DNA from: Aminithiophilus ramosus
Lineage (GTDB): Bacteria; Synergistota; Synergistia; Synergistales; Aminithiophilaceae
Assembly (NCBI RefSeq): GCF_018069705.1
Contig: NZ_CP072943.1
Location: forward strand, 372,001-436,000
DNA length: 64,000 bases
Direction: 5' to 3'
Each line of letters begins with the position of its first letter. Within the stretch, counting starts at the first letter, position 1. The notes beneath the pieces were generated by a model. The model saw only the letters and a list, made by a program, of their open reading frames with translations. It was not told the origin of the DNA and did not search any database. A program made the position numbers and the translations under genes. Of this stretch, positions 7,309-56,995 are shown piece after piece.

Positions 7309-7671
7309 TGAGGGATTCTCCTTCTTCGGTCCAGATGGGAGCTGTAGGTCTCTGCTGCAAGGCCGATCGCGGCCGAGGCGGACGGGCCTGCCGTCGCGAG
7401 ATCCGAGGGGGGCCGGCCGCTGCGGGAAGTTCCGCTGTCCCAATCGGCTCCGGCGCTCTCGAGGCCCGAAAGAGAGAACGTCGTGACCTTGGAGCGGGAC
7501 AGGGCGCTTCGCGCCCTCTGCCGGGGAGGGGCGTCCCTCTCGGGCGGAATCCGGTTTCGGAAAAAAGGTCCTGCGAGAGGTCCGACGGGAAGGGGATCTC
7601 CACGAGAGGCCTTTCGTTCGGGATGGGAAAGATCTTTTCCGAGACGGAAGTCGGAGCCGAGGGGCCTTCCC
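7309..7671. other. Gap between paaK and the MFS gene
   Basis: About 360 bases. It holds a weak terminator for paaK (7561-7583) and a small 7-bp hairpin (AGGGCGC-TTC-GCGCCCT, 7501-7517). No gene or convincing MFS promoter is seen. Confidence 0.4.
7561..7583 (-). terminator. Probable terminator after paaK
   Basis: On the minus strand a short imperfect stem (GGACCT/AGGACC, one A-A mismatch) is followed by six Ts, about 90 bases after the paaK stop. Confidence 0.45.
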
Positions 7672-8922
7672 CTATCGGCTGCGGTTGTCGAAGACGCGGC
7701 GCGTCTTTTTCATCTCCCTTCCCAGGCCGCCCGGCGGCAGAAGGCGGACGCGGGGCAGGGCCGAGAGAGTCATCTTCATCTTGCGGGCCAGATCCTTCGC
7801 CGGTTCGTCGCCGCCGTCGCAGGAACGTTCCACCTCCAGGTCGAGGCAGTCCTTGCCCTCTTCGGTGGTGAGGACGATGCGGAACTCGCTGCCCAGGCCC
7901 GGCGTCTCGGCGACGAGCTTTTCCACGGACGAGGGGAAGAGGTTGACGCCTCTGTAGGTGATCATGTCGTCGGACCGGCCCAGGATCCGGGAGATTCGCG
8001 GGTAGGGTGAGCCGCAACGGCACGTCCCGGGCAGGATGGCGGCCAGATCTCGGGTCCTGTAGCGGATGAGGGGAAGGCCCTCCTTGACGAGCGTCGTTAT
8101 GACCAGCTCGCCCGTCTCTCCCTCGGGAAGGACCGTTCCCGTGGCGGGATCGATCACCTCGAAGTAGAAAAGGTCGTCCCAGTAGTGGAGTCCCTCCTGG
8201 CAGGCACACTCGATGGCGATGCCCGGTCCGTAGGTCTCGGTCATGCCGTAGATGTCGAAGGTCTTGGCTCCGAGAAGGCGCTCGATGACGGCTCTCCGTC
8301 CGTCGCCCCACTGCTCGGCGCCGAGGATGGCTCCCTTCAGCGACGGCGTCAGCCCCTCGCGGCGGATCGTCTCGCCCAGAAGGAGGGCCATGGAGGCCGT
8401 TCCGATCAGGTAGGAGGGGTTCATCTTCCTGAGGAAGGCCATCTGCATCTCCATGGCGATGGGGCCCGTGGGGATGGCGCAGGCACCGAGGCGCTCCACC
8501 CCGGTCTGGAAGCCGATGCCGGCCGTCCAGAGGCCGTAGCCTGGCGTCACCATCGCCCTGTCTCCGTCCGTCATGCCGGCCATGGACAGGGCCCGGGCCA
8601 TAAGCGCGGCGAAGGTCTCCACGTCGCGGGCCGTGTAGGGGATGACGACGGGATCTCCCGTCGTTCCCGATGTGCTGTGGACGCGGACGATTTCCTGCTC
8701 GTCGGCGCAGCAGAGGCCGAAGGGGCTGTGGCGGCGCAGGTCCTCCTTGGTCAGGAAGGGAAGTTCGGCGAAGCGGTCGAGGTTCGTCACCTCATCGGCG
8801 CGGCTCAGTCCCAGCTTTTCCCGGTAGGCCGGGCTTCGCATCGCCTGGTTGAGGCTTCGGTGCAGGCGATTCAGGAGAGAGGGGGTTCCCGTCGCGAGGT
8901 GCTCCAAAAGTCCTGTGGTCAT
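7672..8922 (-). CDS. paaK: Arylacetate (phenylacetate)-CoA ligase, PaaK family
   Basis: Adenylate-forming ligase of 416 residues that activates phenylacetate or a related aryl acid with ATP and CoA. The AMP-binding loop is STSGTTGDPVVIPY near residue 85. Later motifs are IYGMTETYGPG, RTRDLAAILPG with CRCG, and GRSDDMITYRGVNLFP, which begins the mobile C-terminal domain. The ATG at 8922 follows GAGGAGG. In amino-acid-fermenting anaerobes such enzymes handle products of Phe, Tyr and Trp breakdown. That role is supported here by a leader peptide with three Trp codons and a Phe codon plus a terminator upstream. The exact aryl acid is not known. Confidence 0.92.
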   Translation of the reverse strand: MTTGLLEHLATGTPSLLNRLHRSLNQAMRSPAYREKLGLSRADEVTNLDRFAELPFLTKEDLRRHSPFGLCCADEQEIVRVHSTSGTTGDPVVIPYTARDVETFAALMARALSMAGMTDGDRAMVTPGYGLWTAGIGFQTGVERLGACAIPTGPIAMEMQMAFLRKMNPSYLIGTASMALLLGETIRREGLTPSLKGAILGAEQWGDGRRAVIERLLGAKTFDIYGMTETYGPGIAIECACQEGLHYWDDLFYFEVIDPATGTVLPEGETGELVITTLVKEGLPLIRYRTRDLAAILPGTCRCGSPYPRISRILGRSDDMITYRGVNLFPSSVEKLVAETPGLGSEFRIVLTTEEGKDCLDLEVERSCDGGDEPAKDLARKMKMTLSALPRVRLLPPGGLGREMKKTRRVFDNRSR

Positions 8923-54007: not shown

Positions 54008-56044
54008 ATGGTCATTCGCTTCATCCGCAAACGGGACGGGCAGGAAGTCGATTTCGACGTCCGCAAAGTCGAGAGGGCCGTCGAAAAGGCCGCTCGCGCC
54101 GTAGGCCGCGACGAGCCGGAACAGATCGGCCGTGACGTGGCCCGCGGCGTCACGGCCTACCTTCAGATCTTCTTCTCCCGCGAGGGCATTCCCGCCGTCG
54201 AGCAGGTCCAGGACCTGGTCGAGAAGATCCTCCTCGAAAAGGGCTATGCCGACGTGGGAAAGGCCTACATCCTCTACCGGGAGCAGCATGCCCGCATGCG
54301 CGACACGCAGCGCCTCGTCGGAGGCGCCGTCGACATGGTCAACCAGTACCTGGAGCGCATCGACTGGAAGGTCAACGAGAACAGCAACATGAGCTACTCC
54401 CTCCAGGGGCTGAACAACTACATCGCCTCGGAGATCACCGCCCAGTACTGGCTCCAGGAGATCTATCCCCCGGCCGTGCGCGATGCCCACGTCGCCGCCG
54501 ATCTCCACATCCACGACCTGAGCAACCTCTCCGTCTACTGCTGCGGCTGGGACATCCAGGATCTCCTCCGGTCGGGCTTCACCGGCGTGGCGACCAAGAC
54601 GGGAAGCCTGCCGCCGAGGCATTTCCGCACGGCCCTGGGCCAGATCGTCAACTTCTTCTACACCCTCCAGGGCGAATCGGCCGGAGCCCAGGCCTTCGCC
54701 AATTTCGACACCTGCCTGGCTCCCTTCATCCACTACGACGGGCTGAGCTATCGGGAGGTGAAGCAGTCCCTCCAGGAGTTCGTCTTCAACCTCAACGTCC
54801 CCACGCGGGTCGGTTTCCAGACGCCCTTCACCAACATCACCCTCGACCTGACGGTCCCCGCCGGAATGGCGGGCACTCCGGCCATCGTCGGCGGCCGCTT
54901 CATGGACCGGACCCTGGGCGAGTTTCAGGCCGAGATGGACATGCTCAATCGGGCCTTCGCCGAAGTCATGCTCGAGGGCGACGCCAACGGCAAGGTCTTC
55001 GGCTTTCCCATTCCCACCTACAACATCACCGAGGACTTCGACTGGGACAATCCCGTCCTCGACCCCGTCTGGGAGATGACGGCCAAGTACGGCATTCCCT
55101 ACTTCGCCAACTTCATCCATTCCGATATGAGCCCCGACGACGCCCGGAGCATGTGCTGCCGCCTCCGCCTCGACAACAGGGAGCTGCGCAAGCGCGGCGG
55201 AGGTCTCTTCGGCTCCAATCCCATGACGGGATCGATCGGCGTCGTCACCATCAACATGGCCCGCATCGGCTTTCTGGCCCGCACGGAGAGCGAGTTCTTC
55301 GACCGCCTCCTCCACCTCATGGACCTGGCCAGGGAGAGCCTGGAGATCAAGCGCAAGGCCCTGGAGAAGCTCACCGAGGCGGGGCTCTATCCCTACTCGC
55401 GCTTCTACCTCAGGGAGATCAAGAGGGCCTCGGGAAACTACTGGAACAACCACTTCAACACCATCGGTGTCAACGGCATGAACGAGGCCCTTCTCAACTT
55501 CCACGGTCACGACCTCACCCGACAGGAGGGCATCGATTTCGCCGCCAAGGTGATGCGCCGCATGCGCGACCGCCTGGCCGACTATCAGGAGGCGACGGGG
55601 AACCTCTACAACCTGGAGGCGACGCCCGCCGAGGGGGTCACCTACCGGTTCGCCCGCAAGGACAAGGAGCTCTTCGGGGCCCGCATCGCCTGCGCCAACC
55701 AGGAAAATTGGCTCCACGGCGCCGAGCCCTACTACACCAACTCCTCTCAACTCCCCGTGGGGTTCACCGACGACATCTTCGAGGCCCTCGACCTCCAGGA
55801 CGAGCTTCAGACCCTCTATACGGGCGGCACGGTCTTCCACGGCTTCCTGGGCGAGAACCTTCCCGACGTGGACAGCGTCAAGGCCCTGGTCCGCCGCATC
55901 GCCGATCACTACCGCATTCCCTATTACACCATCACGCCCACCTTCAGCGTCTGTCCCGTCCACGGCTACATCCCGGGGGCCCACGAGTTCTGCCCCTACT
56001 GCGACGCCGAAAGGGGCTACGTCGAGGAAGAGAAGATCTCATGA
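54008..56044 (+). CDS. nrdD: Anaerobic (class III) ribonucleoside-triphosphate reductase large chain, lacking its glycyl-radical tail
   Basis: A 678-residue catalytic chain that reduces ribonucleotides to deoxyribonucleotides without oxygen. An ATP-cone allosteric domain occupies about 1-95. Then comes the ten-stranded barrel with Cys in SVYCCGWDIQ (178-179) and MCCRLRLDNREL (383-384). The C-terminal zinc site is present (Cys649 in CPVHGYIPG, Cys662 and Cys665 in FCPYC). The chain then stops after GYVEEEKIS, where other NrdD proteins continue into the RVxGY glycyl-radical loop. That loop is encoded separately at 56771-56929. The ATG at 54008 follows AAAGGGGA. The stop overlaps nrdG by 4 bases. 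Confidence 0.93.
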   Translation: MVIRFIRKRDGQEVDFDVRKVERAVEKAARAVGRDEPEQIGRDVARGVTAYLQIFFSREGIPAVEQVQDLVEKILLEKGYADVGKAYILYREQHARMRDTQRLVGGAVDMVNQYLERIDWKVNENSNMSYSLQGLNNYIASEITAQYWLQEIYPPAVRDAHVAADLHIHDLSNLSVYCCGWDIQDLLRSGFTGVATKTGSLPPRHFRTALGQIVNFFYTLQGESAGAQAFANFDTCLAPFIHYDGLSYREVKQSLQEFVFNLNVPTRVGFQTPFTNITLDLTVPAGMAGTPAIVGGRFMDRTLGEFQAEMDMLNRAFAEVMLEGDANGKVFGFPIPTYNITEDFDWDNPVLDPVWEMTAKYGIPYFANFIHSDMSPDDARSMCCRLRLDNRELRKRGGGLFGSNPMTGSIGVVTINMARIGFLARTESEFFDRLLHLMDLARESLEIKRKALEKLTEAGLYPYSRFYLREIKRASGNYWNNHFNTIGVNGMNEALLNFHGHDLTRQEGIDFAAKVMRRMRDRLADYQEATGNLYNLEATPAEGVTYRFARKDKELFGARIACANQENWLHGAEPYYTNSSQLPVGFTDDIFEALDLQDELQTLYTGGTVFHGFLGENLPDVDSVKALVRRIADHYRIPYYTITPTFSVCPVHGYIPGAHEFCPYCDAERGYVEEEKIS

Positions 56045-56732
56045 AGCTCGCGGGCCTGATCAGGACGAGCCTTCTCGACGACCCGGGCTACATCTGCTGC
56101 GTCGCCTTCACCTCCGGCTGCGACCTGCGCTGTCCCTACTGCCACAACGGCGATCTGGTCGAAGGGGCTGTCGATGGGGAGGGGTTCCCGCTGGAGAGGC
56201 TCTGGGATCATCTCGAGGCCCGTCGAGGTCGGCTCGACGGCGTCGCCTTCACGGGAGGGGAGCCGACGCTCCAGCCCGATTTGGCCGAGGTCCTGGCCGA
56301 GGCCCGGGTGCGGGGCTTCCGGGTCAAGCTGGACACGAACGGCACGAGGCCCGGCGTGCTCGAGGAGCTGCTGGGTCGCCGTCTCGTCGATCGCGTCGCC
56401 CTCGACGTCAAGTTGCCTCTGGAGCGGTACGGCGAGCTGGGGGCCTCGCCGGACCGGATCGAGGCCGTCGGGAAGAGCCTCTCGCTCCTCCTTGAAGGTG
56501 CCGTCGACGTCCTTTTTCGCACCACCGTCGTCCCCGGCCTCCACGACGAGACCGATATGGAGGCCATCGCGAAGCTCTGCCGGGGGGGAGGCGTTTCGTC
56601 ATCCAGAACTTCCGTCCCGGCAAAACCCTCGATCCCTCCTACGGAACGAGAGCTCCCTTCCCGCCGTCGCGGCTGGAGGGGTTTCGGAAAATCCTCGAGG
56701 CACAGGGCCTCGTCGTCGACATACGACCCTGA
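56041..56732 (+). CDS. nrdG: Anaerobic ribonucleotide reductase-activating protein NrdG, apparent frameshift in a G7 run
   Basis: Radical-SAM activase that makes the glycyl radical on the reductase. The 4Fe-4S motif CDLRCPYC (Cys27, Cys31, Cys34) and FTGGEPTLQ are clear. At 56582-56588 a run of seven Gs breaks the frame. As read, translation continues into unlike sequence to 56799. With eight Gs it would continue as RRFVIQNFRPGKTLDPSYGT and end ILEAQGLVVDIRP at TGA 56730-56732, the expected C-terminus of 230 residues. The radical-SAM core lies before the break. Homopolymer position suggests sequencing error, slippage or real mutation. Confidence 0.85.
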
Positions 56733-56770
56733 AGGGTCCCGTTCGATCCGCGAAAGGAGAGCTGCTCCAA

Positions 56771-56929
56771 ATGGAAAAGGACAAGAGAACTCGCTGTGAG
56801 ATCTACTCCCGCGTCGTCGGTTTTCTCACCCCTGTCTCGCAGTGGAACAAGGGGAAAAAAGAGGAATTTCGCGATCGCCGCACCTTCGATCGCGTCCTTG
56901 AAAAGAAGGCCCAGGTCGCGGTCCACTGA
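56771..56929 (+). CDS. Stand-alone glycyl-radical subunit of class III ribonucleotide reductase
   Basis: A 52-codon gene with ATG at 56771 and GGAG upstream. The product contains CEIYSRVVGFLTPVSQWNKG followed by KKEEFRDRRTF. This is the C-terminal glycyl-radical segment of NrdD, with Gly17 as the presumed radical site (SRVVGF). In ordinary NrdD these residues follow the zinc site in one chain; here they form a separate third gene after nrdD and nrdG. A terminator follows directly. It should bind NrdD so that NrdG can place the radical and the loop can reach the barrel. Sequence identity to the family is plain; the working of a split enzyme is inferred. Confidence 0.88.
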   Translation: MEKDKRTRCEIYSRVVGFLTPVSQWNKGKKEEFRDRRTFDRVLEKKAQVAVH

Positions 56930-56952
56930 AGCGACGATCCGTCACGTTCAGG

Positions 56953-56995
56953 CGGCGCAGGGGGAGGTCCTCGGACCTCCCCCTGCGCCGTTTTT
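56953..56995 (+). terminator. Terminator of the nrdD-nrdG-orf52 operon
   Basis: CGGCGCAGGGGGAGGTCC and its perfect complement, 18-bp stem with a 2-base centre, followed by TTTTT. Confidence 0.92.

Follow-up and report, generated by a model that had tools for sequence, protein, structure and literature searches.

The 64,000-nucleotide stretch of the Aminithiophilus ramosus genome analysed here (contig NZ_CP072943.1, positions 372,001 to 436,000; hereafter the window) carries a class III ribonucleotide reductase locus encoding the catalytic chain NrdD, the activase NrdG and a small free-standing protein that we call R (orf52), in that order and on one strand (Table 1). NrdD matches the NRDD barrel family with 600 bits in a Pfam profile search, and its open reading frame translation ends ...CPYCDAERGYVEEEKIS, directly past the zinc site. 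The end of the NRDD profile that is missing from NrdD is matched by R (36.5 bits, E 3e-9). The same junction is evident against Thermotoga maritima NrdD (4coi), to which NrdD aligns over residues 90-610 and R over the adjoining residues 611-643, the latter match being weak when R is taken alone (E 0.02). As one match ends at residue 610 and the other starts at 611, the break falls between the zinc site and the radical loop. The first-pass annotation of this DNA had claimed that NrdD stops after its zinc site and that the missing segment is a separate gene after nrdG; both parts are borne out by the profile matches and by R having its own ATG, AAAGGAG, stop codon and terminator-like hairpin. 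This hairpin has a folding energy of -46.5 kcal/mol (z -8.4), equalled by none of 200 shuffles, and is absent from the list returned by a simple pattern scan for terminators.

Table 1. Features of the window locus (positions in the window) and of two further loci carrying R (positions in the locus named)
Feature	Position	Strand	Basis or source
nrdD core, catalytic chain of a class III ribonucleotide reductase lacking the glycyl-radical loop, 678 residues	54008..56044	+	ribonucleoside triphosphate reductase model NF006126, 1024 bits; NRDD 1-531/562
ATP-cone domain, residues 5-95 of NrdD	54020..54292	+	PF03477, 67 bits
Cys383-Cys384 of NrdD, finger-loop cysteines, expected thiyl-radical site	55154..55159	+	invariant in 32 aligned NrdD
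NrdD zinc site C649-x2-H652 ... C662-x2-C665, C-terminal end of chain	55952..56002	+	C649, C662, C665 invariant, H652 nearly
nrdG, radical SAM (S-adenosylmethionine) activase	56041..56799	+	TIGR02495, 166.6 bits over residues 3-181
AAAGGAG, likely ribosome-binding site of R	56753..56759	+	11 nt upstream of R ATG
R (orf52), predicted free-standing glycyl-radical subunit, 52 residues	56771..56929	+	NRDD 532-562/562
Gly17 of R in RVVGF, expected radical glycine	56819..56821	+	invariant; role by homology to class III site
Terminator-like hairpin and T run 3' of R	56950..56995	+	folding energy against shuffles
Fur-family gene, zinc-ribbon R, rubrerythrin and desulfoferrodoxin in a row	L235 3403-5021		Patescibacteria
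Fur-family gene, zinc-ribbon R and rubrerythrin in a row	L236 3609-4853		Patescibacteria

The locus thus has the NRDD barrel, the finger-loop cysteines and C-terminal zinc site and, in the same operon, the NrdG-type activase of a class III reductase, but not the radical glycine and barrel in one chain that mark a single-chain NrdD, the RVVGF motif sitting on R. The thiyl-radical role of Cys383-Cys384 is one we take from established knowledge of class III enzymes. The predicted model of the NrdD core (predicted local distance difference test score, pLDDT, 82.7) finds class III reductases as its best matches (8p2s, Z 33.8; 4con, Z 31.5), this group spanning Z 33.8 to 27.6 and the next barrels reaching 19.9. 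The start of nrdG overlaps the nrdD stop by 4 nt, and nrdG stays in frame to about residue 181, where it is shifted at a run of seven G near 56582-56588; the alternative frame meets a stop at 56730-56732. In the sister strain L-13 of the same species the run has eight G and nrdG is intact, so the window nrdG carries a one-base difference, which may stem from a sequencing error or from mutation in the strain. The frameshift was missed by the first-pass annotation.

Judged from its codons, R is under purifying selection. Among ten R sequences 23 of the 52 positions are invariant, and a comparison of ten Synergistales R genes over a 34-codon core (an eleventh did not fit the pattern of the script) places 855 of 1227 summed pairwise differences at third positions. 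The ratio of nonsynonymous to synonymous substitution rates between the window R and its two nearest relatives in the ten-gene set is about 0.03-0.04. A survey of 185 Synergistota genomes, 115 of them with an NRDD match, identified 18 cores that end at profile position 529-536, 17 of which are accompanied by a separate match to the profile end; the eighteenth, without R, sits at a contig edge. These split forms belong to five families of a single order, Synergistales, and the start of R and the gene order are kept.

A search for R in other genomes, which had been suggested as a check, yields split pairs in Synergistota and in several further phyla. Among the best 80 of 91 confirmed loci on genome contigs with R, free R lies near a truncated nrdD in the order nrdD-nrdG-R in Synergistales and Halanaerobiales, in the order nrdD-R-nrdG in Patescibacteria, and as truncated nrdD, a gap of about 1.5 kb, R and nrdG in Caldisericota/Cryosericota; intact NrdD was seen in the same scan in Gastranaerophilales, Myxococcota, Omnitrophota and others. 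Readthrough from nrdD into R in Patescibacteria, hinted at by equal open-frame numbers, was discarded, as several mixed stops lie between the two. A truncated core, or pieces of one, is present in 49 of 50 whole genomes of R-bearing loci, the exception (G253) having only an R on a phage-like contig, and seven of the 50 carry two or three R genes.

The association was quantified in three clades. In the Orenia order (13 genomes, nine with NRDD above the cut-off) R accompanies all six truncated cores and none of the three intact ones; the latter, from Halobacteroidales, form a distant NrdD subtype in the tree and are therefore not close sister states of the split forms. Among 54 genomes from the phylum of the Caldiserica representative, 39 of which match, R is found with 29 of 31 truncated and 0 of 7 intact cores, one genome having R only. 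In the class of the Falkowbacteria representative (239 genomes taken from a larger group, 97 above the cut-off) it is found with 61/61 truncated cores, two of the 34 genomes with intact NrdD have a free R, one genome has R only and one a fragment; matches spanning stops in G487 and G527 were counted as split. Pooled, R occurs with 96 of 98 truncated and 2 of 44 intact cores (Fisher p 4e-31).

Proteobacteria and Campylobacterota are also among the groups with the split form, which is present in plasmid records of Azospira (679 + 59 residues), Bradyrhizobium, Sulfuricurvum, Paracoccus and Cupriavidus, where plasmid pHG1 of C. necator H16 encodes chains of 676 and 66 residues. In the part of the Cereibacter record that was read, R lies upstream of nrdG. 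The fused form is seen in Acidiphilium, Actinomyces and Geoalkalibacter. The suspicion that similar short reading frames might be annotated elsewhere proved correct, as several plasmid records in RefSeq give the name 'ribonucleoside triphosphate reductase' to the long gene and 'nrdD' to R, and others list R as hypothetical or not at all. The RefSeq pair WP_011154155/WP_011154154 has the same split in the order nrdD-R-nrdG, as an annotation that states neither function nor split. The 1999 account of C. necator nrdDG by Siedow et al. is said to discuss Gly650; residue 650 of the C. necator RefSeq long chain is the glycine of the zinc-site HGY. According to the accessible part of PMC2864759, the NrdDG enzyme of C. 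necator H16 is essential for complete denitrification. On plasmid pALVIN01 of Allochromatium vinosum (L371 2983-3192) a solitary RefSeq 'nrdD', which is R, has no long reductase gene in the 6 kb inspected.

Many carriers of the split enzyme appear to have no other ribonucleotide reductase. We searched 80 of 106 split genomes, and 53 of the 80 have neither a class I/II large subunit (PF02867) nor the monomeric class II type, RTPR (TIGR02505), comprising 41 of 59 tested Patescibacteria and 12 of 13 Caldisericota/Cryosericota; these counts are to be read with the caveat that some assemblies may lack parts of the genome and that scavenging is possible in Patescibacteria. The TIGR02505 search was positive in 4/4 Halanaerobiales genomes used as a control, and Halanaerobium was accordingly dropped as a candidate for the split enzyme as sole reductase, the four tested genomes of the group carrying class II RTPR. 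Taken as a group, the 53 genomes without a match to another reductase speak for a functional split enzyme.

That truncated NrdD and R occur together almost without exception in several phyla is best explained by a split enzyme whose small chain bears the radical glycine, as the first-pass annotation had supposed. An intact second nrdD elsewhere in the genome, which it had named among the refuting findings, was looked for and not found: the single-contig, 3.1 Mb window genome has no NRDD match besides the nrdD/R locus. Three points weigh against a working two-chain enzyme: the nrdG copy of the window is frameshifted; the genome encodes a class II NrdJ (PF02867 match; NF006417, 1043 bits), so the class III enzyme need not be essential in this organism; and the truncated cores of G302 and G303 in the Caldiserica phylum survey lack R, though these assemblies may be incomplete. 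The finger loop is equally uncertain in the predicted models of the core and of an intact homologue, a comparison that speaks for neither side. The frameshift and the class II reductase would also suit decay, with a mutation having broken nrdD and left R as a functionless remnant, but R and NrdD are conserved together in five Synergistales families and several phyla, R has a strong third-position bias and has kept its start and gene order, and nrdG is intact in the sister strain, making decay very improbable. That one gene was split by a sequencing or assembly error has a vanishingly small probability: the one-base difference in the nrdG run does exist, yet nrdG itself sits between nrdD and R, several stops separate the two parts in other lineages, and the arrangement recurs in dozens of genomes assembled independently, among them plasmid records in RefSeq.

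Joining of the chains after translation, by a split intein or trans-splicing, is hardly credible, since neither the NrdD end nor the R start has an intein-sized extension and the junction residues vary freely between lineages, even though long inserts are common in the NrdD frames of related loci (Halanaerobium and others). It is also very unlikely that R is solely a repair part, serving other, damaged glycyl-radical enzymes while the truncated NrdD obtains its radical from elsewhere. Viral records in which R occurs but nrdD does not, and copies of R next to oxygen-defence genes, both described below, would agree with such a role, but R continues NrdD and not the pyruvate formate-lyase family, PF13597 being its sole match, and it accompanies truncated NrdD almost without exception. 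No match of R to the Gly_radical domain of the pyruvate formate-lyase type was found among families listed up to E 1. Overall, the initial observation is right and the split-enzyme reading is well supported.

The locus very probably specifies, as far as can be predicted from its genes, a two-chain class III reductase with the radical on a putatively exchangeable R subunit, a class III counterpart of YfiD/GrcA. In this proposal nrdD, nrdG and R would form one anaerobic enzyme of two chains plus activase, NrdD contributing the ATP-cone, barrel, finger-loop cysteines and zinc site, and R the glycyl-radical loop and the tail, both of which come after the zinc site on the single chain of ordinary NrdD. 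R would dock on NrdD at the place of the tethered loop. In class III chemistry NrdG generates a glycyl radical in the loop, and this radical oxidises the cysteine of the finger loop; here NrdG would take hydrogen from Gly17 of R, and the glycyl radical on R would then give rise to a cysteine radical on NrdD with which nucleotide reduction starts, R Gly17 and NrdD C383/C384 being the conserved candidates for this chemistry. Scission by oxygen at the R glycine would destroy the 52-residue piece and, because R is not covalently joined to it, spare the 678-residue chain for reuse. The R cysteine in RTRCEVYSR was considered as a strict inter-chain zinc ligand and rejected, intact enzymes having Cys or Thr at this position and Caldisericota R having Thr. 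The idea that R may be exchanged after oxygen damage is strengthened by stand-alone viral R, by a copy in a row with Fur, rubrerythrin and desulfoferrodoxin genes and by the extra R copies in several genomes.

In a scan of viral contigs (80 loci, many of them near-copies, with flanks of up to 6 kb) 67 loci have a free R with no nrdD or nrdG match in the flanks, 11 have intact NrdD, one was unparsed and one, on a 203 kb record, has free R with an nrdD core and nrdG. No NrdD core is present in 39 of 40 whole viral records, many of which are fragments, and the fortieth has a loop-less core. A second scan with the zinc-ribbon type of R sorted 79 loci into 62 free, 12 intact and five unparsed. It shares contigs with the first scan for at least 18 of these loci, and by a simple rule 30 of the 79 have two CxxC motifs upstream of the radical loop. 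Comparable CxxC pairs precede an NrdD glycyl loop in a 144-residue protein of the archaeal virus ANMV-1 (L224 3680-4114), where it is annotated as a reductase. This and one intact NrdD were the only hits in 50,697 phage records, indicating that R is rare in cultured or named phages. A second R of strain L-13 lies in a prophage (L139, chromosome 1011000-1026000) at about 7630-7794, between primase-like and terminase genes and together with head-tail connector and GP7 capsid genes; an NRDD search found no such prophage R in the window genome. R of some viral contigs and of Caldisericota share an N-terminal extension, which fits the expectation if phage and host R serve one NrdD.

Cellular R also occurs beside intact enzymes and in oxygen-related settings. 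In G388, which has intact NrdD, a zinc-ribbon R of 100 residues is flanked by a Fur-family gene on one side and by rubrerythrin and desulfoferrodoxin genes on the other. A Fur-R-rubrerythrin row is found in G416, a genome whose search gave no NrdD core. G517 has a second R within an iron-sulfur assembly set of Rrf2, NifU-type and aminotransferase-V genes. G820 has the order nrdR, intact nrdD, zinc-ribbon R and nrdG, and its tree neighbour G865 a truncated nrdD followed by zinc-ribbon R. With the loci in oxygen context, this pair looks like a series, represented by few genomes, from spare part to obligate subunit. More broadly, R might be a replaceable, phage-moved radical cartridge existing in three forms: an obligate subunit of split enzymes, a zinc-ribbon spare controlled by oxygen stress beside intact enzymes, and a phage gene that restarts or takes over synthesis of deoxyribonucleoside triphosphates in infected anaerobes. 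Intact, spare-plus-intact and obligate-split enzymes would then be interconverting states; we consider the chances of this wider proposal to be evenly balanced. For 44 NrdD cores a single clade of split forms is not rejected (approximately unbiased test, p-AU 0.355). A 52-row tree including Proteobacteria has fused and split forms mixed, and its starred branches force at least four changes, which indicates that fission, refusion or transfer happened repeatedly.

Canonical NrdD/NrdG systems (T. maritima 4coi/4u3e, T4 1h78, Prevotella copri 8p23) share the barrel, zinc site, finger-loop cysteines, NrdG-type activase and glycyl-loop motif of the window enzyme, and the ATP-cone is also found in P. 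copri NrdD, but here the glycyl-radical loop is a separate gene product. Ribonucleotide reductases of other classes are known to work in pieces, reportedly including the split class II NrdJab of Pseudomonas aeruginosa. A further case is the split NrdA of phage Aeh1, described in the accessible part of PMC3653736, which also lists phages whose nrdD is interrupted by introns, by inteins or by gaps left unexplained. In contrast to R, the splits of NrdJab and Aeh1 NrdA leave a radical-bearing glycine loop uninvolved. The window split separates zinc site and radical loop, which form one glycyl-radical domain in the available text of PMC11226230. That source, PMC2795772, PMC9669993, PMC4390871 and PMC3019208 all, in the portions available, treat the glycine as part of NrdD, and the literature searched, in which subscription papers are mostly not included, holds no description of a split class III enzyme or a separate radical subunit.

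The pyruvate formate-lyase spare parts YfiD/GrcA and T4 Y06I are, like R, small free glycyl-radical proteins and also phage-borne. R differs in belonging to the NrdD family (PF13597) and in being the sole source of the loop in bacteria with truncated NrdD, not an add-on to an intact enzyme. In the accessible part of PMC8683613 only YfiD and Y06I are given as validated spare parts, and the existence of others for other glycyl-radical enzymes is called possible; R offers a sequence-level answer to this question for enzymes other than pyruvate formate-lyase, and makes it testable. A core anaerobic enzyme of DNA-precursor synthesis would exist as two chains in many bacteria, among them the genetically tractable C. 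necator H16 and Paracoccus denitrificans, and a detached radical carrier of 40-60 residues would be a handy system for studying activase recognition, radical transfer and repair. R can also be flagged as a gene repeatedly carried by viruses of anaerobes.

Several further loci were recorded. The Spirochaetes metagenome-assembled genome G263 (L232/L233) combines a truncated NrdD and adjoining R with a further R gene close to one for an endolysin, and it also has an intact NrdD that belongs to another subtype. G118 (L140 1370-1699) has a 109-residue open reading frame, with the glycyl motif IRRITGYLVGT of another NrdD subtype, before an nrdD cut by the contig end. In two Falkowbacteria loci (L104, L119) an orphan R has an rsmH-like methyltransferase gene as its neighbour, after which L104 has a small FtsL-like reading frame; these families were named by eye from the sequence. 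Frames of nrdD of about 990-1420 residues, their match split by long intein-like inserts, occur in L073-L075, L080, L091, L093, L095, L100, L105 and L144; such inserts are common in Halanaerobiales and are present in one large viral record.

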